A DNA stretch of 64,000 nucleotides from contig NZ_CP097800.1 of NCBI RefSeq assembly GCF_000612545.2, positions 868,001-932,000 of the forward strand, written 5' to 3'. The notes beneath the pieces were generated by a model. That model saw only the letters and a list, made by a program, of their open reading frames with translations, made no database searches and had not been told where the DNA came from. The stretch is from Streptomyces sp. PCS3-D2 (GTDB lineage Bacteria; Actinomycetota; Actinomycetes; Streptomycetales; Streptomycetaceae). Both the position numbers and the translations under genes were made by a program. Below are positions 7,286 through 32,451 of this stretch, one piece after another; position 1 is the stretch's first letter, and every line of letters begins with the position of its first letter.

Positions 7286-8497
7286 GGTTTCTCCTTGTGC
7301 CAGGTGTACGGGTTGGTGCGGGCCGCGAGCAGCAGCAGGCAGGCGGCGCAGACCGCCGCTCCGGCGGCCGCCCACGGGGCGCCCGGGGGCCGAGATGTGC
7401 AGGGCGAGTTGCGGGGCCGCGATGAAGGCCAGGTTGACGCCGCCGGAGTACAGGCCCATGTTGCGGTCGGCGGCCGGGCCGGAGAGCCGGCTGACGTAGG
7501 CGAGCAGGCCGGGGAAGACGACGATCTCCCCCGCCGTCCACACGAGGGTGGCGAGCACCAGCTCCGGCCCGCTGTCGGCAAGGGCCATGAGCAGGAACCC
7601 GGTGCCCCCGAGCGCGTAGCCGCTCAGCAGCGTCGCCAGGTGTCCGACGCGTGCCATGCGGATGTTGAGCGGGACCTCGAACAGGACGATCCCGACGGCG
7701 TTGACGGTGAAGACGACGCCGGCCCAGTAGCCGGGCAGGCCGAGGCCGACGATGACGTAGGCGCCGACGAAGACCGAGGGCAGCGCGTAGGCCAGCTGGA
7801 TGGGCAGCGAGAGGCCGAACACGCTCCAGAACCGGGTGCGTTCGGCCGTCGTCTGCCGGACCGGGCCGCGCGGGCGGGTCCCGTGGCCCGGTCCGCCGAC
7901 GGCGGCGTCCGGTCCGGCGGCGGGCCGGCGTTCGCCGCAGTGGTGCAGGAACGCCGCAGCCGCGAGGACGCACAGGGCGTTGGCCCAGAACACGGCGTGC
8001 GGGTCGAGGGCGTAGAGCAGGGCCCCGAGGAGCGGGCCGGCCGACAGTCCGAGGTTGATGGCGAGCCGGTAGCAGGAGAAGGCGACCTTGCGCTGCTCGG
8101 GCGGTGACCCGGCGATCGTGGCAGCGTAGGCCGCCGGGGTGACGATCTCGTACGCGAACCCCCAGATCAGCACCACCGTGATGAGCGCGGGCAGGCCGTT
8201 CAGCAGCGGCACCACCGTGACCGCGGCGGCGCCCAGCAGGAAGCCGCCCCGCATCAGGGCGTACGGGTGCAGCCTCGCGAGGAGCCGTCCGGCGGCCAGG
8301 TCCGCGGCGAGGGCGCCGACCCCGAAGGTGGTGACGGCCAGGCCCGCCTCGGCCGCTTCCAGACCTCCGCGGCCCAGCAGGTACGGGGTGAGGAAGGGGT
8401 AGGCCATGGTGCCGGTGCGGAAGATCAGGGTGGTGAGGAACAGGGTCCGCAGGGGCGGGGCGAGCCCGGCCACCGTCCGCAGGGTCTCAGCCGGCAC
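7267..8497 (-). CDS. MFS drug-type exporter with an apparent frameshift near its 3' end
   Basis: A 12-helix-type MFS transporter. It begins with GTG at 8497 (protein MPAETLRTVAGLAPPLRTLF), overlapping the upstream gene by 11 bases. Eleven hydrophobic segments can be followed to NLAFIAAPQLALHISAP. There the frame changes: the missing last helix (AAAGAAVCAACLLLLAART) and a stop at 7267 are in the next frame. Removing one base from the C5G3/C3G5 run at about 7380-7390 restores a normal protein of about 409 residues. As written, the frame instead runs through into the TauD gene. Likely role: export of the cluster product and self-protection. Either a sequencing error or a real mutation would explain it. 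Confidence 0.75.
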
Positions 8498-9899
8498 GGC
8501 GGGTCCCGGCCGGCCTCCGGGCGAACACGGCGGCGGGGTTGAACAGGCCTGCCGGGTCGAGGGCGTCCTTGAGGTCGCGGTGCACGCGCAGGGCGACCGG
8601 GCCCAGTTCGCGTTCCAGCCAGTCCTGCTTGAGCTTGCCGACTCCGTGCTCGCCGGTGATAGTGCCGCCGAGGGACAGGGCGAGGGCCAGAATCGCGTCG
8701 AACGCCGTCCGGGCGCGGGCGTACTGCTCGGCGTCGTCGCCGTCGTAGAGGACCGTGGGGTGCATGTTGCCGTCGCCCGCGTGGCCGACGACCGCGACGG
8801 TCAGCCCCGCGTCGGCGCCGATCCGCGTACAGCCCTCGATCAGATCGGCGATGAGGGTGCGGGGCACGGCCACGTCCTCGGTCATGCAGGCGCCCCGGGC
8901 TTCGAGGGCGGCGAGGCTCACCCGGCGGGCACGCAGCAGCAGGGCGCCCTCCGCCGCGTCCTGCGTGGCGTGCGTGTACACCGCGCCGGCTTGCCGGAAC
9001 ACGCTTTCCATCTGGTCGAGTTCGGCTTCGCGGGTGCCTTCCGGCGCGTCGGACTGGCAGAGCAGCAGGGCTTGGTCGCCTTCGCCAGCGAGCTCGGTGC
9101 CGAGGTAGGCAGACGAGGCCCGCAGGGAGGTCGCGTCCATGATCTCCATGAGGGAGGGCACGAGGCCGGCCCGGACGATCCGGCTGACGCTGGCTCCCGC
9201 CCGGGCCACCGAGTCGAAGGCCGCGATGACGGTGCCGGGCGCGGAGGGCAGCGGGCGCAGGGCGAGAGTGGCCCGCGTGATGACCCCGAGGGTGCCCTCG
9301 CTGCCGACGAGGAGGCGGGTGAGGTCGTAGCCCGCGACGCCCTTGACGGTGCGGCGGCCGGTGCGCAGGAGGGAGCCGTCGGCGAGGACCGCGTCCAGGC
9401 CGAGGACGTAGTCGCCGGTGACCCCGTACTTGCCGCAGCACAGGCCGCCCGCGTTGGTGGCCAGGTTCCCGCCGAGGGTGCACGTGTCGAGGCTGGAGGG
9501 GTCGGGCGGGTAGTACAGGCCGTGGGCGGCGGCGGCCGTCTTCAGGTCCTGGTTGACGACGCCGGGTTCGACTACGGCGATCCGGTTGTCCGGGTCGAGT
9601 TCGAGGATCCGGTTCATCCGCGTGGTGGCCAGGACGACGCAGCCGTCGACGGCGTTGGCTGCGCCGGTCAGGCCCGTTCCGGCGCCCCGGGGAACGATCG
9701 GGACGCCGGCCGCCGCGCAGGCCCGTACGCATGCTCGCACCTGCTCGGCCGAGGCGGGCAGGACCACCGCGAGCGGCCGGCCGTACGGGGCGAGCGGCAT
9801 CATGTCGTGGGCATATCCGGTGGTGACGTCCGGGTCGGTGACCAGGGCGCCCTCGCCGTCGAGGGCGGCGCGGAGGGCGTCCAGCAGGGAGGCGGTCAT
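8487..9899 (-). CDS. GlcD-type FAD-linked 2-hydroxyacid oxidase/dehydrogenase
   Basis: A 470-residue VAO-type flavoprotein. The FAD-binding PCMH domain is at about residues 35-215 (VVLPASAEQVRACVRACAAA, PIVPRGAGTGLTGAANA, the pyrophosphate-binding GNLATNAGGLCCGKYG, LLVGSEGTLGVITRATL). The C-terminal domain ends VGHAGDGNMHPTVLYD and TGEHGVGKLKQDWL, as in glycolate oxidase GlcD and D-lactate dehydrogenases. It has an ATGA overlap with the ferredoxin gene. Substrate is probably a D-2-hydroxy acid; in context it may produce a 2-keto acid for transamination by one of the aminotransferases. Confidence 0.88.
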   Translation of the reverse strand: MTASLLDALRAALDGEGALVTDPDVTTGYAHDMMPLAPYGRPLAVVLPASAEQVRACVRACAAAGVPIVPRGAGTGLTGAANAVDGCVVLATTRMNRILELDPDNRIAVVEPGVVNQDLKTAAAAHGLYYPPDPSSLDTCTLGGNLATNAGGLCCGKYGVTGDYVLGLDAVLADGSLLRTGRRTVKGVAGYDLTRLLVGSEGTLGVITRATLALRPLPSAPGTVIAAFDSVARAGASVSRIVRAGLVPSLMEIMDATSLRASSAYLGTELAGEGDQALLLCQSDAPEGTREAELDQMESVFRQAGAVYTHATQDAAEGALLLRARRVSLAALEARGACMTEDVAVPRTLIADLIEGCTRIGADAGLTVAVVGHAGDGNMHPTVLYDGDDAEQYARARTAFDAILALALSLGGTITGEHGVGKLKQDWLERELGPVALRVHRDLKDALDPAGLFNPAAVFARRPAGTRRAG

Positions 9900-10108
9900 G
9901 CCGGCCGCCCGCCGGGGGTGGTGACGAGGATCGCCCGGGCGGGGCACAGGTCGGCAGCCTCCAGGACGGCGTCGGCGAGGTGCGCGGCCGGTTCCGGGTC
10001 CAGCAGCAGGACGATGCCGTCGGTCTCGTCCTGGTCGAAGACCGTGGCGGCGGACAGGACGCAGTGGCCGGCGCCGACACAGCGCTCGGGATCGAGGGTG
10101 ACCTTCAC
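9896..10108 (-). CDS. 3Fe-4S ferredoxin, partner of the adjacent P450
   Basis: A 70-residue small ferredoxin (VKVTLDPERCVGAGHCVLSA, then ADLCPARAILV). The C-x5-C spacing with a third Cys before Pro is the pattern of actinobacterial 3Fe-4S ferredoxins that feed electrons to cytochromes P450. GTG 10108 has AAGGAG eight bases upstream. It lies 38 bases downstream of the P450 gene, as expected for a redox pair. Confidence 0.9.
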   Translation of the reverse strand: MKVTLDPERCVGAGHCVLSAATVFDQDETDGIVLLLDPEPAAHLADAVLEAADLCPARAILVTTPGGRPA

Positions 10109-10146: not shown

Positions 10147-11383
10147 TCACCAGGTCACGGGCAGGGCGTGCAGCCCGTACACGGCCATGTCGGACTTGAA
10201 GCGGATCTCCTCCACGGGTACGGACGTGCGCAGCGTCGGGATCCGGCGGGCCACGGCCGCGTAGGCCTCCTGGAGTTCCACGCGGGCCAGCGACTGGCCC
10301 ATGCACTGGTGGGGCCCGTACCCGAACGCGAGGTGGCCGTGCGCGCGGGAGGCGGGGTCGAACCGCTCGCCGGCGGGGAAGCGTGCGGGGTCCCGGTTGG
10401 CGACGTTGATGGCGGCGACGGCGCCCTCCCCGGCCCGTACGAGCCGGTCGCCGACCTCCACGTCCTCGACAGCGATCCGGCGGATGCCGCGCTGGACCAC
10501 GGTGAGGTGGCGCAGCATCTCCTCGACGGTGTCGGCGAGCAGCTCGGGGTCGTCGTCGTCCGTGCCGAGGGCGGCGAAGTGGTCGGGGTGGCGCAGCAGT
10601 GTCAGTACCCCGAGGGAGATCATGTTGGCGGTGGTGTCGTGGCCGGCGGTGAGCAACAGGAGTGCCATGGCGGCGAGTTGGCGCCCGGTCATGGTCCCGT
10701 CGGGCAGGTGGCGGGCGGCCATGCGGCCGATGAAGCCGTCGCGCGGTTCCCGTTCGGCGGCGGCGACGAGCTCCTCCAGGTAGTCCTGGAGGGCCTGCCG
10801 GGCGGCGGCGGCGCTCTCGGTGGTACCGGCGACGACGTTCATGGTGTGGGTCAGGCCGCGGAAGAGTTCGCGGTCTTCGAAGGGCACCCCGAGGAATTCG
10901 CAGATGACGGTGAGCGCGACGGGCAGGGCCAGGTCGGCCACCAGGTCGGCCTCTGTGCCGCGGAGCATCCGGTCCAGGCAGTCGTCGATGACGGCGCGGA
11001 CGGCGGGGCGCCACTGCTCGGCCCGTTTGACGGTGAACTCGCCGAGTGCCAGGCGCCGTAGGGCGTCGTGGCGCGGGTTGTCCATGACGAGCAGGGTCGG
11101 CTCGACGGCGGTCTCGGCGAGGGCGACGGCGCTGGACAGTGGGTAGCCGGGGCGGCTCTTGTCGGCGCTGAACCGGGGGTCGGACAGCACGGTACGGGCG
11201 TCGTCGAAACCCGTGAACAGCCAGGGGCGGACCCCGTTCCACAGCGTCACGCGGGGCACGGTGCCCGCCTCCCGGATGGCGGTGGCCTCCCGGGGCGGGG
11301 TGAACGGGCACTGCCGGTCCATGGGGTAGTGCGGGTCGGTCGTCGGGTCGGCCATCGGGTCGGTCGTCGCGTCGGCCATCGGG

Positions 11384-11391
<8 letters not shown>
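10147..11391 (-). CDS. Cytochrome P450 monooxygenase
   Basis: A 414-residue bacterial class I P450. Seen: I-helix oxygen-activation motif TAGHDTTAN, ExxR in EEMLRHL, and the heme-thiolate loop FGYGPHQCMGQSLAR. It starts at ATG 11391, overlapping the NRPS stop by 8 bases. The N-terminus is unusual: MTDPMADATTDPMADPTTDP is a repeated peptide encoded by near-identical 15-24-base units at about 11335-11391, so internal starts (ATG 11355 or others) are possible. Likely to hydroxylate or cross-link a carrier-bound or released product. Confidence 0.92.
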
Positions 11392-17880
<6,489 letters not shown>

Positions 17881-17884
<4 letters not shown>

Positions 17885-18306
17885 GGAGCCGGGGTCACCT
17901 CCTGCGGGGCGCGTTCGAGGGCCTCGACGACGCTGGCGGTGTCGAAGAGGTCGAGGTAGCGGGAGATCAGTCCATCGCGGACGGTGAACACGTTCATCCA
18001 CTGGGCCTCGTAGCGCGCCTCGTTGGCCAGGACCAGGGTGCGGCTCACGCCCAGCACCACGATCCGGTCCCCGGCGTCGAGGTAGTCGTAGGCCTCGCAC
18101 TCCTGGACCCGGATCAGCTCGCGGACGATGGCGAAGAACTCGCGGAAGCCCTCGACGCCGCGGTAGACGCCGGCCCACGGCAGCGAGGCGGGGCCGTGGT
18201 AGACCCATTCGAAGTCGGGGGCGAGCAGCAGCTCGATGTCGGCGAGGCGGCCCTCGTCGAACAACCGGAAGAAGGTGCGGATCACTTCCACGTTCTGTGT
18301 GCTCAT
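17881..18306 (-). CDS. SnoaL-like / NTF2-fold protein
   Basis: A 141-residue single-domain NTF2-like protein: MSTQNVEVIRTFFRLFDEGR, then LLAPDFEWVYHGPA, GVEGFREFFAIVRELI and WMNVFTVRDGLISRYLDLFD, the typical alpha+beta cone fold of SnoaL/ketosteroid-isomerase relatives. These act as cyclases, isomerases, hydroxylase partners or binding proteins; the specific role is not deducible. Both ends overlap neighbours by 4 bases (ATGA and GTGA), so it is translationally coupled between the two-domain aminotransferase and the NRPS. Confidence 0.85.
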
Positions 18307-20510
18307 GCGTTGTTCCTCGAATAGGCGGGGGTGGGGGTGCGCGGCGTACGCCGCTTCGGCCGGCCGGACAGGCGCTGGCCCAGCCGGAACAGGGCGGCGT
18401 GGGCGAGGAGCCGGACCGGACCGGTGCGGGAGAGCCGGCGGGCGCTGCGCATGACCTGGCGGATCTCCCGCTCGGTGGCGGTCAGCGGCAGCAGGAACAC
18501 GTCGTAGACGACGAAGGCGCGGGCGCGGTTGATCCACCAGAGGATGAGGGCGTACGTCATCCACTCGCCTTCGGGGTCGACGAAGCGGCCGAGGACTCCG
18601 GGTACGCGTGGTTCGAACCGGCCGAGCATGCCCTCGGCGAAGCGGCGGCCGACCACTCCGCGCGGCCCGTCGTCCATGGCCGCGAGCCCGGCGCGCACCA
18701 GGTCCGACAAGGCCCCGACGCGTTCGGGCAGGCCCAGGGCGTCGACCTGGCCGATGGCCTGGAGGGCGAAGTGGGCGCCCAAACCGTGGGCGTGGTGGGT
18801 GCGCAGTTCCTCGACCAGCAGCGGGTTGGTCCTGCGCGCGGCCTCTTGGACCTCGTCGGATACGAGGGCGGCGCCGGTGGGGAAACAGCCGTAACTCAGT
18901 GCCTTGGACAGGCTCATGAGGTCGATGTAGGGGAGCCGGCCGTGGTGGGCGAAGCGAGTGCCGCACCGGTAGTAGGACGTCAGGACCTCGTCGACGCCGA
19001 CGAGGTAGCCGTGCTGGGCCCGGCCCTCGGTGACGGTGTCGAGGAGGGGGCCGGGGATCGCGGTGTAGGCGTCGGAACTGCCATGGACCAGTTCGATCCA
19101 CACGAGTCCGATGTCGCCCCCGGCCGCCTCCTCGCGGAACTCGTCGACGGCGTGCGGGGTGAAGGGGTCGATGTAGCGGATGTCGTCGTAGAGGGGGCCG
19201 AAGGGCGCGCGGGTGCGGTCGGCGGCGGTGGCCAGCAGGGAGACGAGGGTCTTGCCGCCGTAGTTGTGCTTGAAGACGACGATGCGCCGCTGCCGGGGGC
19301 GGGCGAGGCGGGCCAGGGTGATGGCGCTCTCCACCGCGGACGCGCCGCTGACGGCGGGGAAGGTGTGGGGCAGGCCGGTTTCCCGGGCCAGGACCTCTTC
19401 GAGCTCGCGGACGTGGCCCCGGGCCGGGTCGTGGCCCCGTACGACGTCGGTCAGGGCATCGGCGGGGTTGTGGCCGGCCACGCCGAGCCCGGCTCCGCAG
19501 AGCCCGTCGACCAGGTCCAGTTCGCGGCCCGAGTCGAGGCGGACGGTGAGCCGGGAGCCCTTGGCGCGGACGACGTTCAGCGCGCCGTGCAGCTTGCGCT
19601 GCATGCGCGCCGCCATCGGGTTCACGTGGCGGGCGTACAGGTCGAGGGTGGCCTGCCGGTCTGCGGCGGCCGCCGCGAGGACGCGGTGCACCGGGGCGGC
19701 GGCGTCCCAGCGGGGCAGCAGCCGGGCGATGACGGCGCGCATGGCGACGGTGTTGCCGCCGTAGGTGTTGGAATGCAGGAATCCGGTCTGCGGGGTGGTC
19801 CACGGCTCGAACGTGTCGTGAGTGCCGGTGAAGGCGCCGAACGGGACCTCGTGCCCGGTGAGGGATTCGCCGAGGACGACGAGGTCGGGGCGGAGCGCGG
19901 TGACGGCGGGGTCCGCCGGGCTGTCCGGGGCGATGTCGCTGAGGTCGACGACGATGCGGGCTCCGGTGGCGCGCGCGGTGCGGGCCAGTTCGGCGACGGC
20001 GGCCCGGGCGCTGTCGTCGAGGAGTTCGGGGGCGCGTACGACGAGCCCGCACACCGGGGTGCCGGTGCCCTGCAGGGCGGAGCGCAGGCCGTCCACGGTG
20101 GTGTGGGTGAGGAGGCCGGGGGCGAGGGCGAGGTCGGGGCCTTCGGCGAGGGGGTCGGCGCGGCGGGCGAGGGTGCCGTCAGGGTCGAGAACGAGGACCC
20201 GGCCTCGGTGGACGGCGGCGGTCGCGGCGGCGCGGTGGCGCAGCAGTTTGACGGCGCCGTGCAGGGCCTCGTAGCGGGAGTTGGCGAAGAAACTGCGGTA
20301 GCGGGTGCCGGCCGGGCGGTCGCCCAGTTCCCGGACGAACTCGCTGAGGAGGTGGCCGGCCTGCGCGGATTCGGCGGTCACGAACCAGGACGGCATGGCG
20401 AAGACGGGCTGTTCCTGCGCGATGAGGTCGGCCAGGATGCCGAGGGTCTGCGGGCCGGCCGGGCGCAGGTGCGACACGGGGCCGGGTGGGGCCTGGGGGT
20501 TCGGGTTCAT
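18303..20510 (-). CDS. Tandem class III aminotransferase: degenerate N-terminal half plus catalytic C-terminal half
   Basis: 735 residues, about 1.7 times the normal length. The C-terminal half (about 330-735) is a class III aminotransferase: LDLVDGLCGAGLGVAGHNP, FKHNYGGKTLVSLL, LVGVDEVLTSYYRCG with the PLP-contacting Asp, and DLMSLSKALSYGCFPTGAA with the Schiff-base Lys at about 536. The N-terminal half looks like a second copy of the PLP domain: FFANSRYEALHGAVKLLRHR matches the substrate helix, but the Lys position reads LVVLGESLTGHEVPFGA (Glu for Lys), so it should be catalytically dead. Functional classes include transamination and aminomutation; it could aminate the aldehyde released by the NRPS. 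ATG 20510 is chosen as the first start after non-coding sequence. The stop overlaps the SnoaL start (ATGA). Confidence 0.8.
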   Translation of the reverse strand: MNPNPQAPPGPVSHLRPAGPQTLGILADLIAQEQPVFAMPSWFVTAESAQAGHLLSEFVRELGDRPAGTRYRSFFANSRYEALHGAVKLLRHRAAATAAVHRGRVLVLDPDGTLARRADPLAEGPDLALAPGLLTHTTVDGLRSALQGTGTPVCGLVVRAPELLDDSARAAVAELARTARATGARIVVDLSDIAPDSPADPAVTALRPDLVVLGESLTGHEVPFGAFTGTHDTFEPWTTPQTGFLHSNTYGGNTVAMRAVIARLLPRWDAAAPVHRVLAAAAADRQATLDLYARHVNPMAARMQRKLHGALNVVRAKGSRLTVRLDSGRELDLVDGLCGAGLGVAGHNPADALTDVVRGHDPARGHVRELEEVLARETGLPHTFPAVSGASAVESAITLARLARPRQRRIVVFKHNYGGKTLVSLLATAADRTRAPFGPLYDDIRYIDPFTPHAVDEFREEAAGGDIGLVWIELVHGSSDAYTAIPGPLLDTVTEGRAQHGYLVGVDEVLTSYYRCGTRFAHHGRLPYIDLMSLSKALSYGCFPTGAALVSDEVQEAARRTNPLLVEELRTHHAHGLGAHFALQAIGQVDALGLPERVGALSDLVRAGLAAMDDGPRGVVGRRFAEGMLGRFEPRVPGVLGRFVDPEGEWMTYALILWWINRARAFVVYDVFLLPLTATEREIRQVMRSARRLSRTGPVRLLAHAALFRLGQRLSGRPKRRTPRTPTPAYSRNNA

Positions 20511-20674
20511 GACGCCATCTCGCTCGTGGGAGGGATCCCGGCGGCGGGTGTCCGCGGGACCCGGTGTTCTTGGCAGAACCGGTTGCGGGGTCGGCCACGG
20601 CGCGCGGCCGGCGGTACCGAGGCCGGGCGAAGGCCGATCAGCGGGCCGGCACCGGGCAGGGCCGGGCGGCGGGG

Positions 20675-20820
20675 GCGCGCTGTCAGGTGCACTTGCCCGC
20701 CGCCCCGGACCCCAGGAGACCGCGACACACACGGCGCCGGACTCCACACCGTCGGCAGAACTGCCGCCGGCCAGGACCGGGCGACGGGGAGCGCGCTGTC
20801 AGGTACGCTTCCCCGCCGCC
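20675..20820. repeat. Imperfect direct repeat in the only large gap of the operon
   Basis: Two copies of a unit of about 30 bases (GCGCGCTGTCAGGT, then CCCGCCGCCC) at 20675-20706 and 20791-20820, 116 bases apart, between the GH35-like gene and the two-domain aminotransferase gene. The second copy abuts the GH35 stop. The gap 20511-20827 holds no gene I can support. It breaks an otherwise overlapping gene series, so it may carry an internal promoter or terminator. Confidence 0.4.
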
Positions 20821-20827
20821 CGGGGTG

Positions 20828-22738
20828 TCAGGAGGCCGTGACGCGCTTCGCGTCGGCCTCTTCGCCGGCCCAGATGAGGGCGACGGGGGTCGTGGACGGC
20901 TCCGCGGGGGTGGCGAGCCAGCCCGTGAGTGCGCCGTCCTGGGTGACGAGGACCGCGGCGGAGCCGGCGGGCAGCTCCAGCGTCCAACCACTGCCGGTGA
21001 CCCGGTCGTCCGCGTCGGTGGGGTTGAACGCGCCGATGACGCGGACGCCGCCGGGGCCGGAGCGGCTCAGGACGCGGGCCCGGCCGTGCGCCGTGGTCCA
21101 GCGCGGCCCGGCCGGGGCCGGGAGCGTGGCGGCGAACGCGGCGACGAACGCGGCGACCGCGCCCCCGGCGGGCTGGTCGGCCGGGAGCCTCAGTTCGCCG
21201 GGGAGGTCGCCCTCGGGGTGCCCGGCCCGCAGCACGGCGACGGGGACGGGGGTGCCGTCGGCGGCGGGCGCGGGCTGCTCGTCAAGCCAGCCGAGACCGA
21301 TCAGCCGCCCGGAGTCGGCCAGTTGACGGTGCACGGCGTCGGCGAGCTCTGCGAGGACCGTGCCGCCGGTGCGCTGCCAGGCCCCGGTCTGGGGCAGGGC
21401 CCGGTCTACGAGGACCACCGCGTCGCGGTCCAGGACGCTGCCGGTCAGCAGGTCACCGTGGCGTTCGAGGAACGCGGCCAGCAGCCGCAGGCCCTCGGCG
21501 TTGGCCTGGTGGGAGCCGGCCTCGGCGAGCGGCGCACCCGGGGTGTACGGCGGTGCGTGCAGGCCGGGATCGACACCTTCGGCGCGCAGTCCGTCGGGGT
21601 CCATGTCGACCAGGGGGCCCCAGTTCTCCGTGGCGCAGGCGGTGTAGACGCTGATGGTGGTGGAGCCCAGCAGGAGGGCCAGCAGGGCGTTGAAGACGGG
21701 GGTCGCCGGCCGGGCGAAGGACGCGTCGGTCCAGGTGAAGCCCCAGTTCGCCTCGACCACGTCGGTGCCGCCGAGGAGGATCCCGGCCAGGTGGGAGCCG
21801 AAGGCGGCGGTCTCCCGCGCCGGATTGCCGATCCATTCGGTGTGGCCGACGAAGTACCCGGAGCCCTGGATGGCGCGCTGCCGGGCTGCCCAGGCGTCGA
21901 AGGCGGCGCGCGGTGCGGTGACCCCGGTGAGGGGGACGTTGGCCAGCCGGGCCGGGCCTTCGGGGAAGAGCGCGGAGATCCGGTCCCACAGGCCGACGAT
22001 GCCGTGCCCGGACCACCGGGACCACAGCTGTCGCGTGGCGCTGGTCCACCGGGTGACGTCCTCGGAGGCGAGGGCGGCCTCGTCGGTCAGGCCGTGGCCG
22101 GTGAGCCAGTGGGCGAAGGCGCGGCGGGCGGCCGGCGAGGCGTCCTGGGCGTCCACGGGGAGGTGGGCGTCTCCGCAGGTGCCTTCGTTGCCGAGTTGGA
22201 GGGCGACGACGGGGCCGTCGGGGGCGGTGGCCCCGGCGACGACCTCGTCGGCGACGGCCTTCAGCCAGGTCTCCGTCTCGGCCTGGACGGCCGGGTCGAG
22301 GAGGCTGGGCAGCGGCTTGCCCTGGGAGGTGAGGACGGTGCCGTCGAGCCCCTGATAGGGGGTGTGTCCGGGGCCGCAGAGCCGGTCGGGCAGCCCGCCG
22401 AGCTGGACCTCGGCGTGGATGAAGGGGCCGGGCTTGAGGAGGACGCCCAGTCCGGCGGCCGCGGCGAGCTCCAGCAGTCCGACGACGTCGCGCTGAGGGT
22501 CGGTCTTCCCGGTGAAGTCGAAGGAGGGACCCCCCTCGCCGAGGGGCCCGCCGGTCTCGTGGAAGCGCCAGGGGAGGTAGCAGGACACGACGTCAACGCC
22601 CAGGGCGCGCAGTTCGCGCAGGTTGGCGGCCCAGTTGGCGGGGTCGGCCCGGTAGTAGGGGTACTCGCCGACGACGACGGGCCGGCGGGTGCCGGGGACG
22701 AGCGCCTCGGCGAGTGCGGCGCGCGGCGTGGGACTCAT
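20828..22738 (-). CDS. GH35-like beta-galactosidase, intracellular
   Basis: 636 residues with a GH35-type TIM barrel. Seen: GEYPYYRADPANWAANLREL, VSCYLPWRFHE, VLLKPGPFIHAEVQLGGLP, and VVALQLGNEGTCGD with acid/base Glu185. GYFVGHTEWIG carries the probable nucleophile Glu301. Both catalytic acids are present. C-terminal beta-rich domains follow (about 430-636). No signal peptide is visible, so it acts in the cytoplasm. It has ATGA overlap with the dehydrogenase gene. A glycosidase inside a putative azasugar operon could be a resistant decoy or target, a trimming enzyme for a glycosylated intermediate, or a catabolic leftover; these cannot be told apart from sequence. Confidence 0.82.
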   Translation of the reverse strand: MSPTPRAALAEALVPGTRRPVVVGEYPYYRADPANWAANLRELRALGVDVVSCYLPWRFHETGGPLGEGGPSFDFTGKTDPQRDVVGLLELAAAAGLGVLLKPGPFIHAEVQLGGLPDRLCGPGHTPYQGLDGTVLTSQGKPLPSLLDPAVQAETETWLKAVADEVVAGATAPDGPVVALQLGNEGTCGDAHLPVDAQDASPAARRAFAHWLTGHGLTDEAALASEDVTRWTSATRQLWSRWSGHGIVGLWDRISALFPEGPARLANVPLTGVTAPRAAFDAWAARQRAIQGSGYFVGHTEWIGNPARETAAFGSHLAGILLGGTDVVEANWGFTWTDASFARPATPVFNALLALLLGSTTISVYTACATENWGPLVDMDPDGLRAEGVDPGLHAPPYTPGAPLAEAGSHQANAEGLRLLAAFLERHGDLLTGSVLDRDAVVLVDRALPQTGAWQRTGGTVLAELADAVHRQLADSGRLIGLGWLDEQPAPAADGTPVPVAVLRAGHPEGDLPGELRLPADQPAGGAVAAFVAAFAATLPAPAGPRWTTAHGRARVLSRSGPGGVRVIGAFNPTDADDRVTGSGWTLELPAGSAAVLVTQDGALTGWLATPAEPSTTPVALIWAGEEADAKRVTAS

Positions 22739-23772
22739 GCGTCCGCCCCTTCGTGCGGAGGTACGAGGACGACCTTCAGGGCGGTGTACTCGGCGCCGGG
22801 GACGGCGGCGAGGGCCTTGAACGCCTCTTCGTGGTCGGCGAGGGCGAAGCGGTGGGTGACCACGCGCTCCAGCGGCAGCTGCCGGGCCAGCTCGACGGCC
22901 TTGGGGAAGATCATGCTGTTGTAGTCGCCGGCGCCGATGATCTGCAGGCCGCGCTGGAGCAGGGTGAGCGGCCGGACGGTGGCGGAGGCGTTGCTGTTGA
23001 AGCCCATGACGACGACGCGGCCGCGAACGGCGGCGTAGCCGATGCTCTGCTCCAGGAGGTTGCCCACGGAGTCGACGACGAGGTCGCCTCGCTCGGTGAG
23101 GGCGGGGTCGTCGGGGGTGTGGACGGTGACGCGGCCTCCGAACTCGGGGGCGTCGAAGATCTCCTGGCCGAGCCGGCCGCGTACGGGGTCGGGCTCCACG
23201 AGGAGGACGGTGGCACCGTACCGCTGGGCGGCCATGGCGGTGACGACGCCCATGGGGCCGCCACCGACGACGACGGCGGTCTCGCCCGCCGCCAGGCGGC
23301 CGGCATCGATGTTGTTGAGTGCGCAGGCGAGCGGTTCGACGACGACGGCGCGGTCGAAGTCCATGTCCTCGGGGATGGCGTGGAAGAAGAGCTCGGGGAG
23401 GCGGATGAACTCGGCGAAGGAGCCGTCGTAGTCCAGGCCGACCTCGGTGCCGGCCTTGCGGCCGCAGAAGTTCCAGTGGCCTTCGAGGCAGGTGGGGCAG
23501 TTGCCGCAGTACAGGGTGGGGTTGACGATGACCCGGTCGCCGACGGCGAAGCGGGTGACGCCCGGGCCGGTGGAGTCGACGACGCCGACGGCCTCGTGGC
23601 CCATGACGACACCGGTCTCGGCCGGGAACTTGCCCACGAGGACGCTGCGGTCGGTACCGCAGATGCCGCTCTGGGTGACGCGGATGACGATGTCGTCCGC
23701 GGCCAGGGGTTCCGGCTTGGGGTGGTCGACGAGGGCGAGCGTGCGGTCTGCGGTCAGCGTCAGCGCCTTCAT
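22735..23772 (-). CDS. Zinc-dependent polyol dehydrogenase (GutB1-like position in azasugar signature)
   Basis: A 345-residue medium-chain Zn dehydrogenase of the sorbitol/threonine dehydrogenase group. Catalytic Zn ligands are in SGICGTDRS and MGHEAVGVV. A four-cysteine structural Zn lobe reads CGNCPTCLEGHWNFC. The Rossmann motif is VVVGGGPMGVV. In the azasugar pathway GutB1 oxidises the terminal hydroxyl of 2-amino-2-deoxymannitol, and the amino aldehyde closes to an iminosugar; that role is inferred here from gene order and family. Both ends overlap neighbouring genes by 4 bases (ATGA). Confidence 0.87.
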   Translation of the reverse strand: MKALTLTADRTLALVDHPKPEPLAADDIVIRVTQSGICGTDRSVLVGKFPAETGVVMGHEAVGVVDSTGPGVTRFAVGDRVIVNPTLYCGNCPTCLEGHWNFCGRKAGTEVGLDYDGSFAEFIRLPELFFHAIPEDMDFDRAVVVEPLACALNNIDAGRLAAGETAVVVGGGPMGVVTAMAAQRYGATVLLVEPDPVRGRLGQEIFDAPEFGGRVTVHTPDDPALTERGDLVVDSVGNLLEQSIGYAAVRGRVVVMGFNSNASATVRPLTLLQRGLQIIGAGDYNSMIFPKAVELARQLPLERVVTHRFALADHEEAFKALAAVPGAEYTALKVVLVPPHEGADA

Positions 23773-24740
23773 GATTCCTCCGTCACGGGCGCGGCGGCGG
23801 CGCGGCCCAGGTCCCAGCGGATGGTGTCGAGCAGTTGCTTGTGGAGCTCGGGGGTGGCGGCGGCGATGCAGGACTTCTGGTTCATCGGGCCGAGGTCCAC
23901 CAGCGAGGTGGAGCCGAGGTCGTCGCCGTAGGCGTCCGTGATGACGACGCCGGCTTGCCGGGCGAGGTAGACGACGGCGGCGATGTCGTAGGGGAAGAGG
24001 TGCAGGATCGAGCCGCGGCCGACGCGCAGGAACGCCTCTTCGGTGTCCGGGTGGTCGCGCAGGACGCGGTTGCCGATGTCGACGTAGGCGTCGAGCTGCC
24101 CGGTGATGATGCGGGAGATGGAAAAGGTGCTGCTGTTGAAGACGAAGATGCCGCCGGTGTTGGCCGAACTGTCCACGAGGTGGCCGTACGCCTGGGTCAT
24201 CAGGTCCATCGGGTGGCCGTTGAACTCGATCGACCAGAACATGTGGGTCGGGTCGGTGTTCCGGCTCAGCCGCGGGACCGGGGTGGTGAATCCGCCGCTG
24301 TCGAGGCCGTCGGTGTCGTCGCCGTACAGCCACGCGCCGCTCTTGATCTCGACCAGGCAGGCGGCGTCGACGTCGGCGAGGGTGGGCTTGCCGTCCCCGT
24401 AGGGGGCGGCCGCGATGGACACCATGCCCATTTCGAGACCGGCCGAGGTGGGACGGGTGCCGTCGATGGGGTCGACGACCAGGAGGACCTGCGGGTCGGG
24501 GGCGAGCTCGACGTAGGAGCCGTCCTCGGTGTAGAGCGCCGCGGGTACGTGGGCGTGTTCGCGCAGGTAGTCCAGTACGGCTTTCTCCGCCACCTCGTCG
24601 ACGTCGAACTGGGCGTCGCCGCCAGGCGAGTCGCCGTGCACGCTGCGTTCGCGGCCGGTGGCCTCGTAAGCGAGGAGTTCGGCGCGGACGTGCTGCCCGA
24701 GGGAGACGAGCAGCCGCTTCATCGGGTTGTCGGCGGTCAT
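23769..24740 (-). CDS. Inositol-monophosphatase-family phosphatase (Yktc1-like position)
   Basis: A 323-residue member of the IMPase/FBPase superfamily. The metal-binding motifs are YTEDGSY (standing for the GEE/GDE motif) and VVDPIDGTRPTSAG. The C-terminal Asp motif is weaker (FPYDIAAVVYLARQAG). In the azasugar pathway Yktc1 removes phosphate from 2-amino-2-deoxymannitol 6-phosphate. The family, and the position between an aminotransferase and a polyol dehydrogenase, fit that step; substrate is inference. ATGA overlaps at both ends. Confidence 0.85.
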   Translation of the reverse strand: MTADNPMKRLLVSLGQHVRAELLAYEATGRERSVHGDSPGGDAQFDVDEVAEKAVLDYLREHAHVPAALYTEDGSYVELAPDPQVLLVVDPIDGTRPTSAGLEMGMVSIAAAPYGDGKPTLADVDAACLVEIKSGAWLYGDDTDGLDSGGFTTPVPRLSRNTDPTHMFWSIEFNGHPMDLMTQAYGHLVDSSANTGGIFVFNSSTFSISRIITGQLDAYVDIGNRVLRDHPDTEEAFLRVGRGSILHLFPYDIAAVVYLARQAGVVITDAYGDDLGSTSLVDLGPMNQKSCIAAATPELHKQLLDTIRWDLGRAAAAPVTEES

Positions 24741-26005
24741 CGGGCCAGCTCCGAGAGGAAGAGGTTCTCCAGCTTGTCGCAGATCTCCTCGGCCTGGTCC
24801 ATGGTGAGGATCAGCGGCGGGCGGATCTTGAGGACGTTGCCGTAGCCGTACCGCGAGGTGCGCAGGATCAGGCCGTGGTCCATGGCTTGGGCGGCCAGGT
24901 GGTTGGTGAGCTTCACGGCGGGCCTGCCGTCGGCTTCGGCGATCTCGAAGCCGATCATCAGTCCGACGCCGCGGACGTCCACGATCTGCGGGTAGCGGCG
25001 CTTCATGTCGTGGAGGCGTTCCATGATGTAACCACCCGTGCGGGTGACGTTCGCCAGGAATTCGGGCTGCCGCACGATGTCGAGGGTGGCGTTGGCCGCC
25101 GCGGCGGCCAGCAGGTTGGCGCCGTAGGTGAACGAGTGGTGGTTCGCGGGGAGGCCGGCGAGCCGCTCGTTGGTGATGATGGCGGCGACCTGCGCGCCCG
25201 ATCCGCCGAGGCCCTTGGCCGTGGTGATGGCATCGGGTTCGACGTCGAAGTACTGGGCCGCGAACATGTGGCCGGTACGACCGATGCCCGTCTGGATCTC
25301 GTCGAATATGAGGGCGATGTTCTGCTCGTCGCAGAAGGCGCGCAGTTTCTGCATGTAGCCGTCCGGCGGGACGATGTTGCCGCCGTTTCCGGATATCGGC
25401 TCGATGAGGACGGCGGCGACCCGGCCGGAGCTGGCGTATTCGACGAAGTCGTCGAGCCGGTCCACGCACATCATCCCGCAAGAGCCCTCCTTCTGCCCGT
25501 AGAAGCAGCGGAAGCAGTACGGGTCGGGGACCTGGAGGGTGCCGGGAAAGAGGTTGGGGAACGGCTCGCGGCGGAACGCGTTGCCCGACATCGACGTCAT
25601 CATCATCGTCTGCCCCACGTGACTGCGGAACAGCGTGATGACCTCGGACTTGCCGGTGGCCATCTGGGCCATCTTGATGGCGCCCTCGTTGGCGGCCGAG
25701 CCGCCCGAGACCTTGGGGTGCACCTTCGTCAGGTTGTCCGGGGAAACCTCCGCTAACCGCTGGACCAGGCCGTTGACCGGTTCACTCTGGTAGGAGGAGG
25801 TGATGTGGACCACCTTGTCGAGCTGGTCCTTCATCGCGGCGACGACGGCCGGGTGGGAGTATCCCAGGCTCAGGTTGAACGTGGCCGACGCGCAGTCGAG
25901 GTAGCTCTTCCCGTCCTCGTCGTAGAGGTAGACACCCTCACCCCGCGCCATCTTGTAGTCGCTGACGGGGTAATAGATGTGCTCGGTGACATCCTTGGTT
26001 TCCAT
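24737..26005 (-). CDS. Class III aminotransferase (GabT1-like position), first gene of the biosynthetic operon
   Basis: 422 residues, normal length. Seen: YLDCASATFNLSLGYSHP, GGSAANEGAIKMAQ, VLIEPISGNGGNI, IFDEIQTGIGRTG (Asp235) and TTAKGLGGSGAQ (Schiff-base Lys264). A cysteine-rich insert CFRCFYGQKEGSCGMMC at about 164-180 is unusual and could bind metal. In azasugar pathways GabT1 aminates C2 of fructose 6-phosphate; that substrate is inferred from the two genes that follow. GAGAGGGA precedes the ATG. The upstream 245 bases carry a putative operator, and the gene heads a run of tightly coupled genes. Confidence 0.87.
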   Translation of the reverse strand: METKDVTEHIYYPVSDYKMARGEGVYLYDEDGKSYLDCASATFNLSLGYSHPAVVAAMKDQLDKVVHITSSYQSEPVNGLVQRLAEVSPDNLTKVHPKVSGGSAANEGAIKMAQMATGKSEVITLFRSHVGQTMMMTSMSGNAFRREPFPNLFPGTLQVPDPYCFRCFYGQKEGSCGMMCVDRLDDFVEYASSGRVAAVLIEPISGNGGNIVPPDGYMQKLRAFCDEQNIALIFDEIQTGIGRTGHMFAAQYFDVEPDAITTAKGLGGSGAQVAAIITNERLAGLPANHHSFTYGANLLAAAAANATLDIVRQPEFLANVTRTGGYIMERLHDMKRRYPQIVDVRGVGLMIGFEIAEADGRPAVKLTNHLAAQAMDHGLILRTSRYGYGNVLKIRPPLILTMDQAEEICDKLENLFLSELAR

Positions 26006-26250: not shown

Positions 26251-26859
26251 CTATCCGGGAAATGCGAGAGCGCCGGCGGAGCCGGTCAGAGAATGGGACA
26301 CCGCCGTCGCCGCACGGGCGGCGGGCAGCCCCGCGGGCCCCAGCGCGGCTACGGCCCGCAGCGTGCGCCGGGACGCCTCGTCCCGGGTCAGGCCGGGCCA
26401 GCACAGGTCGTGCAGTCCGGACGCCGCGATCAGGGCGCCCGCGGCCACCGCGTGCGGTGCGGAGCGGTCGGGGTCCTCCACCGACCGCCGCACCCGTCTC
26501 AGCGCTTCGGGGGGCCGGATGCCTGCTCGCCCGCCGGGCGACTGCCCGCCGCCCGGGTACCTCCCCGGGCGGGGGGCGGCGAGCGCCGCGGGACCCAGGC
26601 GTTCCACCCAGTCGGACGGCGCCCGGTCCCGGGCGGAGGCCTCGATATGCGTCAGGAACGCGTCCAGCACCGGGTCGCCGTTTCGGCCCCGCCCTGTCAG
26701 CCGGACCCGGTCGCCGGACAGGTCCAGCCAGCCGGCCAGCGCGCCCTGGAGGAGCATCGCGCCGGCGAGGCCCCTGCCCGTCTCGGTCTCGCGGCGCGGT
26801 GGCGGGAAGCTGCCGTGCGCGGCGGCGCACAGGGCGTAGAACTGCGCCAGCGTCGTCAC
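26251..26859 (-). CDS. GPP34-family (Golgi phosphoprotein 3-like) protein
   Basis: 202 residues resembling the actinobacterial GPP34 family: MLLQGALAGWLDLSGDRVRL, then GDPVLDAFLTHIEAS, followed by helical segments (DWVERLGPAAL; TLRAVAALGPAGLPAARAAT). Eukaryotic GOLPH3 binds PI4P; the bacterial role is unknown. The start GTG 26859 overlaps the stop of the HAD gene (GTGA), so it is the last gene of the MFS-HAD-GPP34 group. The wider open frame reaching 27087 overlaps the HAD gene and is rejected. Confidence 0.6.
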   Translation of the reverse strand: MTTLAQFYALCAAAHGSFPPPRRETETGRGLAGAMLLQGALAGWLDLSGDRVRLTGRGRNGDPVLDAFLTHIEASARDRAPSDWVERLGPAALAAPRPGRYPGGGQSPGGRAGIRPPEALRRVRRSVEDPDRSAPHAVAAGALIAASGLHDLCWPGLTRDEASRRTLRAVAALGPAGLPAARAATAVSHSLTGSAGALAFPG

Positions 26860-27458
26860 GTCAACGCCGCCTCCAGCGCGTCCAGCACCCCTTCGGGCGA
26901 GGTGAACACATGGCCGTGGAGGCCCAGTTTGCGTGCGGCGTGCACGTTCTCGGCCCGGTCGTCGACGAACAGGATCTCCTCCGGAGGCAGTCCGAGCTCG
27001 CGCACGCACCACTCGTAGGCGGCGGGCTCGGGCTTGGCGCTGCCGATCCGGCAGGACAGTCCGCGGACCGCGAACCGCTCCAGCCACGGCTGGGTGGCCT
27101 CGTACCGGACGGCCAGGTCCTCGGGGATGTTGGAGAGGAGGCCGAGCACGAACCCTCTGTCGTCGAGGTCGCCGAGGAGGTCCACGGCTCGCTGGTCGAC
27201 CTCGCTCCAGCTGACGAGGTCAGCGGCGGTCAGCTCCTCGGTCAGCCGCCGGTCGAGCGGGATGCCCAGGTCCGCGAAGACCGCCTGCCAGTAGCCGGGC
27301 CCGGTGACCTCGCCGCGGTCATAGGGGGGCCGCTGCGACCAGTACGCCGCCCAGAAGCGGTCGGGGTCGCCACCAGCCGTGCGTTCCAGAGCGGTGATGG
27401 ACTCGGGCGACTGGACACGCGCGATGACACCGAACATGTCGAAGAGGACGGCTTTCAT
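26856..27458 (-). CDS. HAD-superfamily phosphatase
   Basis: 200 residues of the HAD subfamily IA type. Motif I is VLFDMFGVIA, so the second Asp of DxD is replaced by Met-Phe-Gly (D-M-F), as in some HAD IA-v3 hydrolases. Motif II is LLSNI, motif III is GSAKPEPAAYEWC, and motif IV is ILFVDDRAENVHAA. Probable substrate is a sugar phosphate or similar metabolite. It sits 32 bases after the FucP-like MFS gene and is coupled to the GPP34 gene, under the same putative DeoR control. Confidence 0.85.
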   Translation of the reverse strand: MKAVLFDMFGVIARVQSPESITALERTAGGDPDRFWAAYWSQRPPYDRGEVTGPGYWQAVFADLGIPLDRRLTEELTAADLVSWSEVDQRAVDLLGDLDDRGFVLGLLSNIPEDLAVRYEATQPWLERFAVRGLSCRIGSAKPEPAAYEWCVRELGLPPEEILFVDDRAENVHAARKLGLHGHVFTSPEGVLDALEAALT

Positions 27459-27490: not shown

Positions 27491-28717
27491 TCAGAGTGTG
27501 GTGACGGATTCCGCACGCCCGGGGTCCCGTGGGCGGGACACGCCGCCGGGGTCGGGGGCGTTGCGGCGCAGCCACAGGCTCAGCACGCCGCAGACGACGG
27601 CGAGCAGGAACAGCAGCAGCGGCACCGTCTTGACGTCCATCGCGTCGATCACGGCACCCAGCACCGGCGGGAAGGCCACGCCGCCGATCATCGAGGCGGC
27701 GATCACATAGGCGCCGGCGGCGGCCACGCCGGGCACGGCGCGGTTCAGCCAGGGCAGGCAGGTCGGGAAGATCGGCGCGATCATCAGGCCAACTCCGAGG
27801 TAGGCGTACGGGGCGAAGGCCGGAACGGTCGCAAGGAGCAGGAAGCCGGCCATACCGGCGCAGCAGACAGTGAGGATCGACGGCGCGGACCAGCGCAGGC
27901 TGATCGGCGCGGCGACGAACCGGCCGATGGTCATGGCGGCCCAGTAGGCGGAGGTCGCGGTCGCGGCGGTGGCGGCGCCGTATCCGACGGCTTCGAGGTG
28001 GGTGGGCTCCCAGCCTCCGACGCCGGTCTCGATGGCGACGTGCAGGACGTAGATCCCGATGAACACCGCGATGATCGGAAGCACCCGCGCGCCGCCCGCT
28101 GGGGCGCCTTCCGCCGGGGCCGGGGCGGGCTCCCGGAGGGCCACCCCGCCGAGGGTGACGAGGATCAGCAGGCTGACCACGCCGGTGCCGACGAAGATCT
28201 CCGGGTAGCTGTCCGCCCCGAGCCAGCCGATCAGGGCGGGGCCGGCGATGGCGCCGATGCCGAAGTGCCCGTTCAGTAGGTTGAGCATGGCGGTGCTGCG
28301 GTGGCCGAACCCGACGGCGAAGAGCTGGTTGAGTCCGTAGTCGATGCCGCCGAAGCCCAGGCCGATGACGAACGTGCCGGCGAGGGCGAGGGTCCAGCTC
28401 GGGGAGAAGGCGAAGACGGCCGCACCTACGGCCATGAGTACGTAGGAGCCGCCGAGCAGCACCCGGTTGTTCAGGCGGCCCCGCAGGAGGTGATAGATCA
28501 GCACTCCGAGGAGGGCGCCGACGAAGTGCGCGCTGAGGCTGAGCCCGGCCACGGCCGGACTGATGCCGAATTCGTCCCGCAGTGCGGGGATCGCCGGACC
28601 GTAGAGCGCCTGGAGGGCGCCGATCACCACGAATGCCATGCACGACGCGACGATCGCGACGGTGCTGAGGAGGGGCTTCCCCCCTTCCGGCAGATCGGCC
28701 TCAGTGGTGGCAGTCAT
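27491..28717 (-). CDS. MFS transporter, FucP-like sugar permease
   Basis: 408 residues with about 12 hydrophobic segments, starting MTATTEADLPEGGKPLLSTV. The FVIGLGFGGIDYGLNQLFAV and LNLLNGHFGIGAIAGPALIG segments resemble fucose/glucose permeases of the FHS group. GGAGAG precedes ATG 28717; an in-frame ATG at 28729 has no better ribosome site. It leads the MFS-HAD-GPP34 group and is divergent from the DeoR gene across 167 bases with operator-like words. It may import a hexose or polyol precursor, or export an iminosugar. Confidence 0.85.
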   Translation of the reverse strand: MTATTEADLPEGGKPLLSTVAIVASCMAFVVIGALQALYGPAIPALRDEFGISPAVAGLSLSAHFVGALLGVLIYHLLRGRLNNRVLLGGSYVLMAVGAAVFAFSPSWTLALAGTFVIGLGFGGIDYGLNQLFAVGFGHRSTAMLNLLNGHFGIGAIAGPALIGWLGADSYPEIFVGTGVVSLLILVTLGGVALREPAPAPAEGAPAGGARVLPIIAVFIGIYVLHVAIETGVGGWEPTHLEAVGYGAATAATATSAYWAAMTIGRFVAAPISLRWSAPSILTVCCAGMAGFLLLATVPAFAPYAYLGVGLMIAPIFPTCLPWLNRAVPGVAAAGAYVIAASMIGGVAFPPVLGAVIDAMDVKTVPLLLFLLAVVCGVLSLWLRRNAPDPGGVSRPRDPGRAESVTTL

Positions 28718-28884: not shown

Positions 28885-29652
28885 ATGAACGTGATGGAGA
28901 GGCACAAGTTCGTCGTGGGACTGCTGATGCAGCAGAACCGCGCGACGGTGGCCGAGCTGGCCCAGGCCACCGGGGCGTCCGAGATGACCATCCGCCGGGA
29001 CCTGGAGGTACTCGAGTCCCGGGGGGCCCTGCGCCGGGTGCGCGGCGGCGCCGTGAGCAGCCTGCCCGGCGGCGTCGAGCCCCCGTACGCGATCCGGGCC
29101 ATGTCCGGATCGCAGGCGAAGGAGCGCCTCGCACACGCCGTGGTCGAACTGCTCACCGACGGCGAGACCGTCGCACTGGACACGGGCACGACGGCTGTCG
29201 CCATTGCAAAGTCCATGGCGGACCGCCAGTTCACCGTCGCACCCCTCTCACTGCACGCGGCCTTCACCCTGTCCGCGTTCCCGGGCATCCAACTGGTGAT
29301 GCCCGGCGGGCAGGTGCGCCCCGAGGAGCTGTCCTTCTACGGCCACACACCCGTGCAGACCTTCAAGGACCTGTGCTTCGACACGTTCATCCTGGGGTGC
29401 TGCGGCGTCGACCCCGTTCAGGGAGCGACCGCCTACAACCTCGACGACGTACAGGTGAAGCGTGCGGCGGTCGCCTCGGCGCAGCGCGTGATCCTGGTCG
29501 CGACCGCCGACAAGATCGGCCGTGCGGCGCTGGGCCGCATCTGTTCCATGAAGGAGATCGCCCTCGTCGTCACGGACGCCCCCGCGGACTCCCCCGCGGT
29601 CGAAGTACTGCGTGACCAGGGAGTCGAGGTGGTCCACCCGGCGGAGGACTGA
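28885..29652 (+). CDS. DeoR/GlpR-family sugar-phosphate-responsive repressor
   Basis: 255 residues. The N-terminal DeoR helix-turn-helix is MERHKFVVGLLMQQNRATVA, then TGASEMTIRRDLEVLESRGA and RRVRGGAV. The C-terminal DeoR sensor domain has VALDTGTTAVAIAKSM, PGGQVRPEELSFYG and FILGCCGVDPVQGATAYN. These repressors usually release DNA on binding a phosphosugar or polyol phosphate. It is divergent from the MFS-HAD-GPP34 group, and an identical 11-base word precedes the biosynthetic operon. It is therefore the likely local regulator of both, possibly sensing a hexose phosphate that feeds the azasugar genes. Confidence 0.92.
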   Translation: MNVMERHKFVVGLLMQQNRATVAELAQATGASEMTIRRDLEVLESRGALRRVRGGAVSSLPGGVEPPYAIRAMSGSQAKERLAHAVVELLTDGETVALDTGTTAVAIAKSMADRQFTVAPLSLHAAFTLSAFPGIQLVMPGGQVRPEELSFYGHTPVQTFKDLCFDTFILGCCGVDPVQGATAYNLDDVQVKRAAVASAQRVILVATADKIGRAALGRICSMKEIALVVTDAPADSPAVEVLRDQGVEVVHPAED

Positions 29653-32098: not shown

Positions 32099-32451
32099 TT
32101 CATCTCCTTCGCGAAATAGGCCGCCGCCCGCCGCAGAATCTCCCGCTCGAGTTCCCACTCCTTCTCCGCCTTGCGCAGCCGGCCGCTCTCCGCCCGCAGC
32201 CGGGCCAGCTCCTCATCCCGGCTCTCTCCAGCCGGCTCGCCATGGCCGTGACGGCGACCCGCCTGTTCGTCGGCCTGACGCACCCGGCTCCGCAGCGTCT
32301 CACCAGTCACCCCGACATCCGCCGCCACCGCCGCATACGTACGCTTCCCACCCCCCGCGCGATACAGCGGGACCGCATCGTTCCTGAACTCCGCCGGATA
32401 CGGAGACTTCCGTCCCACCAGGACACCCTTCCCCAGATCTGCAAGATCCAT
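32095..32451 (-). CDS. IS3-family transposase OrfA (HTH)
   Basis: About 118 residues. A helix-turn-helix of the HTH_Tnp_1 type is followed by a leucine-zipper-like helix (LRAESGRLRKAEKEWELE). The segments RKSPYPAEFRNDAVPLYRAG and YAAVAADVGVTGETLRSRVR are typical of IS3 OrfA. ATG 32451 lies just inside the right inverted repeat; a start at 32466 would fall within it. Confidence 0.9.
   Translation of the reverse strand: MDLADLGKGVLVGRKSPYPAEFRNDAVPLYRAGGGKRTYAAVAADVGVTGETLRSRVRQADEQAGRRHGHGEPAGESRDEELARLRAESGRLRKAEKEWELEREILRRAAAYFAKEMK

Follow-up and report, generated by a model that had tools for sequence, protein, structure and literature searches.

A probable azasugar locus with a coupled GH35-like gene and a separable non-ribosomal peptide synthetase cluster lie side by side in Streptomyces sp. 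PCS3-D2

The gene trio gabT1-yktC1-gutB1 is responsible for azasugars, which are sugar-mimicking glycosidase inhibitors. According to the accessible parts of the Bacillus work, its products act by C2 amination of fructose 6-phosphate, dephosphorylation, C6 oxidation and cyclisation (PMC8382821), a scheme also drawn from feeding of S. lavendulae in what is accessible of PMC6713920. Within the accessible part of another report, canonical clusters of the three genes are given for 73 of 2062 Streptomyces genomes, and the trio of S. nojiriensis JCM 3382, a reported nojirimycin/1-deoxynojirimycin (NJ/DNJ) producer, is placed in region 20, typed as 'NRPS, NRPS-like' (NRPS – non-ribosomal peptide synthetase) (PMC8466323). 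In this study, a stretch of 64,000 nucleotides of Streptomyces sp. PCS3-D2 (contig NZ_CP097800.1, positions 868,001 to 932,000), hereafter the window, was analyzed. It belongs to genome G000 (7.63 Mb, 3 contigs), the other G-numbers denoting the genomes compared. The window carries such a trio, encoding a class III aminotransferase (AT), an IMPase-family phosphatase and a Zn-dependent dehydrogenase (DH), with NRPS genes further along on the same strand. The original prediction for this DNA was a hybrid pathway, in which an azasugar is attached to, or co-produced with, a reductively released dipeptide. The comparisons described below argue instead for two separable units side by side, a canonical azasugar locus and an independent orphan NRPS cluster, and this explanation is considered probable; the most likely history is a single joining, in an ancestor, of an NJ/DNJ-type azasugar locus with an orphan dipeptide locus. 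An attractive azasugar-NRPS hybrid hypothesis is thereby corrected by the data.

The first unit consists of the following genes:

28885..29652, plus strand: DeoR-family regulator (PF00455, E 2.6e-39; PF08220), divergent from the azasugar unit
27491..28717, minus strand: MFS transporter, MFS1 (PF07690, E 1.5e-28)
26856..27458, minus strand: HAD-family phosphatase (PF00702, E 8.1e-14)
26251..26859, minus strand: GPP34-family protein (PF05719, E 2e-13)
24737..26005, minus strand: class III AT of the GabT1 type (PF00202, E 2.4e-94; consensus letters and tree, see below)
23769..24740, minus strand: IMPase-family phosphatase of the YktC1 type (PF00459, E 4.5e-15)
22735..23772, minus strand: Zn-dependent aminopolyol DH of the GutB1 type (PF08240, E 3.6e-27; PF00107, E 1.6e-7)
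20828..22738, minus strand: GH35-like protein (PF01301, E 1e-21, residues 14-118), the fourth gene coupled to the trio

Domain matches and coordinates agree with the predicted trio at 22735-26005 of the minus strand, in the order AT, IMPase, DH, and 4-bp overlaps run throughout AT-IMPase-DH-GH35. The trio does not open the operon, as had been supposed, but is preceded on the same strand by the MFS, HAD and GPP34 genes, the last of which ends 245 bp from the AT start. In the order of the three genes the window resembles the GabT1-YktC1-GutB1 cluster of Bacillus velezensis/amyloliquefaciens, as well as the canonical Streptomyces clusters, including that of S. nojiriensis JCM 3382, as far as these are accessible in PMC8466323. 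Unlike the Bacillus cluster, it adds the HAD, GPP34, DeoR and coupled GH35-like genes, and MFS1 shares just 20–22% identity with its matches in the Bacillus loci.

By the available sequence tests, the window trio qualifies as a member of the published azasugar three-gene family, which upholds the original assignment. The Bacillus sample comprised 44 genomes (the genus was reached through B. sonorensis, and the characterised FZB42 protein was not among the rows). An azasugar AT was found in nine of them, with 61–64% identity to the window AT, and in all nine the order AT-IMPase-DH was identical to that of the window and the spacing near-equal (partner matches starting at about +1255 and +2184, versus +1265 and +2233 in the window). 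Compared locus by locus, identities were 61–63% for the AT and 54–57% for the IMPase. The DH, just 31–33% identical to its Bacillus neighbours, is a point that tells against membership; an identity of like magnitude, 33%, is given in the accessible part of PMC8382821 for the DH of S. subrutilus and that of B. velezensis. BLAST scores of the window DH were 161–199 bits against the neighbouring dehydrogenases of Bacillus, Paenibacillus, Pseudobutyrivibrio, Chitinophaga, G186 and NBC_00715, versus 83–89 bits against two paralogues of its own genome and 47 bits against Actinoallomurus. In the AT tree, 39 azasugar-type rows were placed on one branch (Shimodaira–Hasegawa-like approximate likelihood ratio test, SH-aLRT, 99), apart from 16 other class III ATs. 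This tree was obtained with a quick method, with no bootstrap and with an outgroup of our own choice that has long branches, and the azasugar-type branch also includes ATs without partner genes. In the trees of the IMPase and the DH, the window fell into the Streptomyces group already seen for its AT. A catabolic or housekeeping AT was considered and rejected: the 14 other matches in the own genome were weaker (the strongest seven at 30–34% identity) and the class III outgroups lay on a separate tree branch.

Every fixed letter of the AT consensus SGNxFRxxxFPN..LxVPxPYCxRC is present in the window (SGNAFRREPFPNLFPGTLQVPDPYCFRC); the spacer is 2 shorter than printed, and the length of the stretch equals that of the nine Bacillus sequences. 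The consensus is loose, because its strict letters occur in only 6 of the 39 rows and in none of the nine Bacillus rows; PYCxRC is found in 35 of the 39, and VPxPYCxRC is absent from all 16 other class III ATs. Both a neighbouring phosphatase (PF00459 or HAD) and a neighbouring dehydrogenase (PF00107/PF08240) accompany the AT, the phosphatase being the IMPase with its PF00459 match. Four cysteines of the AT (24737-26005), at residues 164, 167, 176 and 180, are invariant in all 20 azasugar-type ATs of the genus that were aligned, and they possibly form a metal site.

Similarity of the AT alone is not proof of an azasugar locus, since ATs 61–68% identical to that of the window occur without an IMPase or DH match nearby in S. 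aureus NRRL B-1941, G324 and Paenibacillus cymbidii. These cases, together with the divergence of the window DH and the 50% similarity of ValM of validamycin to GabT1 (stated in the accessible part of PMC8382821), could point to a trio product other than a piperidine azasugar, namely a pyrrolidine, like the DAB-1 of Chitinophaga, or an amine of the aminocyclitol type. The loci of Chitinophaga (C. filiformis and CF118 were used, not the characterised C. pinensis) and Paenibacillus polymyxa are indeed similar to the window in having a DH next to an AT of 45–47% identity. However, the order in P. polymyxa is AT-DH-HAD, the ATs and DHs of both taxa lie on other tree branches than those of the window, and no IMPase match was found in their three loci. 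With the IMPase identity to Bacillus and the shared gene order also set against it, a product of this other kind is judged quite unlikely. A common alternative neighbourhood was observed around the GabT1-like ATs of S. aureus NRRL B-1941, G324 and P. cymbidii (loci L081, L082; G324). It has no IMPase or DH match and comprises a kinase-like protein, a protein of 411–419 aa (start 'IGGGFRT') and one of 522–523 aa whose start, read by eye, is synthetase-like ('PTPNGRMHIGHG' or similar). It may represent a different, cross-phylum pathway that uses an azasugar-type aminotransferase.

Among 393 genomes of the genus, an AT match at 1e-60 was obtained in 115, and one of at least 46% identity in 20, the own genome included. 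With a match limit of 1e-8 for the partner genes, these 20 comprise 11 with a contiguous canonical trio, four with all three genes dispersed, one with AT and DH only and four with the AT alone (one of them on a 5.7-kb contig). A motif scan of genome contigs gave, among the matches listed (80 loci), six of at least 46% identity; these motifs are common and the scan is no census. A search of plasmids returned the AT in 14 records (best identity 45%) and AT2, which heads the NRPS unit, in one (29.5%). Of the accessory genes, HAD was matched in 9 of the 10 other canonical loci and in G599, the exception being G014, where the contig starts 1.8 kb upstream; MFS1 in 7 of 10 and G599 (not in G036, G048 and G014); and GPP34 in 4 of 10 (G227, G269, G012 and G146) and G599. 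A DeoR-like open reading frame (ORF) was recognised by eye upstream of the azasugar loci of G012, G366, G210, G036, G599 and G146. In G366 (L048/L217), an 893-aa ORF lies between HAD and the aminotransferase that is not found in G012, G210 and G036; its start, inspected by eye, presumably resembles a lanthipeptide synthetase.

The second unit follows the GH35-like gene after a gap:

20511..20827, no strand: gap of 317 bp separating the NRPS unit from the azasugar unit
18303..20510, minus strand: AT2, a PigE-like class III aminotransferase with which the NRPS unit begins (PF00202, E 8.4e-28)
17881..18306, minus strand: SnoaL-like protein (PF12680, E 6.7e-14)
11384..17884, minus strand: NRPS with the domains A-T-C-A-T-R (adenylation, thiolation, condensation, adenylation, thiolation, reductase), from domain searches and motifs compared over 8 loci
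10147..11391, minus strand: cytochrome P450 (PF00067)
9896..10108, minus strand: 4Fe-4S ferredoxin (PF13459)
8487..9899, minus strand: GlcD-type FAD-linked oxidase (PF02913, PF01565)
6446..8497, minus strand: MFS transporter and TauD dioxygenase in a single reading frame (PF07690, PF02668)
5064..6389, minus strand: ATP-grasp ligase, dapdiamide-synthase-like (NF005543, E 1.1e-90, just over the cut-off)
3948..5036, minus strand: AT3, a class I/II aminotransferase with which the NRPS unit ends (PF00155, E 1.2e-54)

Domain searches thus recovered the predicted A-T-C-A-T-R NRPS, followed by the P450, TauD and ATP-grasp genes. Neighbouring genes overlap by 4–8 bp from AT2 through SnoaL and NRPS to P450. 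A scan of the gap (20511-20827) gave 0 consensus promoters and 0 terminators, such a scan being uninformative for Streptomyces. The top NCBIfam match of AT2 is the PigE model, far under its cut-off (121 of 850 bits), and the ATP-grasp ligase also matches NF041595, under the cut-off (E 8e-58). The NRPS is similar to the AusA-type dipeptide NRPS (aureusimine) in its domain order and reductase domain, in which TGxTGxxG and YxxxK are conserved, and it matches NF047350 with an E-value of 5e-254 but only 846 of the 2500 cut-off bits. To our knowledge, the tailoring genes of the window unit are no part of AusA loci. The MFS and TauD parts form one 683-aa frame in the window versus two overlapping ORFs in G012, which is why the fusion is probably a frameshift or sequencing error.

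With AT2 as the marker, the NRPS unit was found in 6 of 393 genomes of the genus, 3 of 249 of the family, 1 of 396 of the phylum (its own genome only) and 1 of 35 in the genus of G469; these draws overlap, and the total is eight distinct genomes. In all eight loci, G469 included, the two A domains have nearly constant binding-pocket specificity motifs; the substrate codes, read by eye, indicated no confident substrate. In six of the eight (G000, G227, G269, G599, G327 and G146) the NRPS unit lies directly downstream of the GH35-like gene. The two units are 1.18 Mb apart on one contig of G012, at 5.22 and 6.40 Mb. There, the NRPS unit starts with AT2 and ends with AT3, which is also the final window protein matched in the other seven NRPS-unit loci, and its flanking genes are otherwise foreign to the cluster. 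Two genes preceding it have orthologues in G000, G227, G269 and G599, and in the 15-kb stretches around these no other gene of the G012 region was matched, the NRPS unit included. In G469, which represents another genus, ten NRPS-unit proteins were identified at 53–72% identity, and no azasugar AT match at E<=1e-60 was found in its 150 contigs. Conversely, no NRPS unit adjoins the trio in 6 of the 11 canonical loci (G012, G366, G210, G036, G048 and G014), of which G014 has a P450 match at 46%. The two halves, as G469, G012 and these six trio loci demonstrate, do not always co-occur, nor do they form one continuous coupled gene run, the 317-bp gap being bordered by overlapping genes on either side.

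A single product, i.e. a reductively released dipeptide to which the azasugar is joined, for example by the ATP-grasp ligase or AT2, would be in line with the adjoining of the units on the same strand in six of the eight genomes and with the retention of both by G012 despite their separation. Against it stand the trio loci without an adjoining NRPS unit and, as the grounds for its rejection as the principal explanation, the NRPS unit of G469 without an azasugar AT match, its different site in G012 and the 317-bp gap; such a hybrid is therefore very unlikely. The original prediction described a run that continues into the NRPS on the same strand, but it omitted the GH35-like gene and the gap, after which a second unit begins. 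It had named a conserved NRPS portion without the trio as contrary evidence, and this was looked for and found in G469 and G012, so that the proposed co-occurrence holds as adjacency in six of the eight genomes and breaks down in these two. There is also a precedent for a trio located within an NRPS region, namely region 20 of S. nojiriensis; its likeness to the window is one of trio order and region type, as far as the accessible part of PMC8466323 goes.

Several observations weigh against two separable units. G469, the sole NRPS-unit genome without an azasugar AT match, is a 150-contig assembly, and G036 and G048 show weak partial NRPS matches (31–32% identity, 18–20% of the query) 14–16 kb downstream. 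The adjacency persists at 62% NRPS identity (G146 and G327) and in six of the eight genomes, therefore a functional link is possible. Furthermore, the ATs of the NRPS-linked loci and G012 constitute one clade of seven rows in the AT tree, so the adjacency may be one event and the co-occurrence statistics non-independent. A single joining with one later separation is the best count, and the hypergeometric co-occurrence value of 8e-9, which ignores the shared AT clade, was not used as proof. These data also bear on a possible arrangement of two products with one function, in which independent pathways would be kept together because the glycosidase inhibitor of one and the peptide aldehyde or amine of the other are more effective in combination. 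Adjacency retained at 62% to 85% NRPS identity is consistent with this, as is the azasugar-type AT in all six NRPS-unit genomes among the 393, versus 20 of 393 overall. However, the ATs of these six genomes belong to a single clade, which makes the association phylogenetically non-independent, and G469 has one unit only; a joint function of this kind is regarded as rather unlikely. Returning to the preferred explanation of two separable units, the NRPS half can be mined and expressed separately, since it was found as a cluster of its own.

The presence of the trio in Streptomyces is already known, and the new point of the locus is the link between the GH35-like gene and the azasugar genes. GH35-like matches were obtained in 11 of the 393 genus genomes at 1e-20. 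Nine of them are near full length (at least 45% identity), all nine lying directly after a trio, and the remaining two are short alignments to longer GH35 proteins; the match in G014 spans residues 15–533, within a 649-aa ORF. G599 adds a tenth trio-linked copy to the nine found at the 11 canonical loci, so that 10 of 12 inspected canonical loci of Streptomyces have the gene. The gene is not beside the trio in G036 and G048, which speaks against a strict trio-GH35 rule. The Firmicute Pseudobutyrivibrio xylanivorans encodes a 647-aa homologue (E 2e-50, 25% identity, 67% of the query covered) whose gene starts 3.8 kb away from that of an azasugar-type AT, a DH gene lying between them. The GH35 profile PF01301 covers N-terminal residues 14–118 alone, and the best solved relatives of the N-terminal part are a beta-1,2-glucosyltransferase, an exo-beta-glucosaminidase and beta-galactosidases. 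The putative acid/base residue Glu185 aligns with the NE motif of GH35 proteins and is kept in all ten sequences aligned; the candidate nucleophile Glu301, assigned by eye, is Ser in two of the ten (G014 and Pseudobutyrivibrio).

Three roles are conceivable for the GH35-like protein: resistance, glycosyl transfer or a step after the trio. It might be a dedicated fourth Streptomyces azasugar enzyme, a reused relative of TIM-barrel glycosidases, with the NRPS unit as a co-selected partner, although this proposal is considered distinctly improbable. Candidate steps would be C2 epimerisation (e.g. by water loss and re-addition at C1), the 1-deoxy step or glycosylation of the azasugar; the enzymes of C2 epimerisation and 1-deoxygenation are described, in the accessible part of PMC8382821, as apparently not clustered with the trio and not yet identified. 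A literature search by title and start of abstract, in which most subscription journals were not covered, found no gene link of an azasugar to a glycosidase or to an NRPS, and the accessible main text of PMC8466323 mentions neither glycoside hydrolase, glycosyl hydrolase nor galactosidase. The GH35-like gene is a concrete new candidate part for the azasugar pathway, and as the product class comprises glycosidase inhibitors and the adjoining protein is glycosidase-like, self-resistance is directly testable.

In the proposed scheme, the first unit (DeoR / MFS-HAD-GPP34-AT-IMPase-DH-GH35) would start with amination of a ketose phosphate by the AT, most likely fructose 6-phosphate at C2. The IMPase-family phosphatase would then release O6 and the DH would oxidise C6, whereupon the amino aldehyde would cyclise to a mannojirimycin/nojirimycin-type azasugar. 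MFS1 is predicted to export this compound and the DeoR protein to sense a sugar phosphate, while the translationally coupled GH35-like protein may act on the azasugar product or protect against it. The second unit (AT2-SnoaL-NRPS-P450-Fd-GlcD-MFS-TauD-ATP-grasp-AT3; Fd – ferredoxin) would operate as an independent orphan cluster, in which the NRPS releases a dipeptide aldehyde that is aminated, probably by AT2, and tailored further.

Beyond the end of the NRPS unit, the minus strand encodes an aspartate decarboxylase (PanD, 2044-2466) and a protein with a weak Asp/Glu racemase match (1217-1957), neither of which was matched in the other azasugar or NRPS regions compared. On the other side, about 1.5 kb past the DeoR gene, lies a gene for a transposase-like protein with HTH_21 and rve integrase domains (31199-32158, minus strand), which we take to be of the IS3 type. 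A gene on the plus strand (34032-38669) encodes a 1545-aa RHS-repeat protein that carries a type VII secretion system signal domain and, at its C-terminus, a colicin D-like domain.

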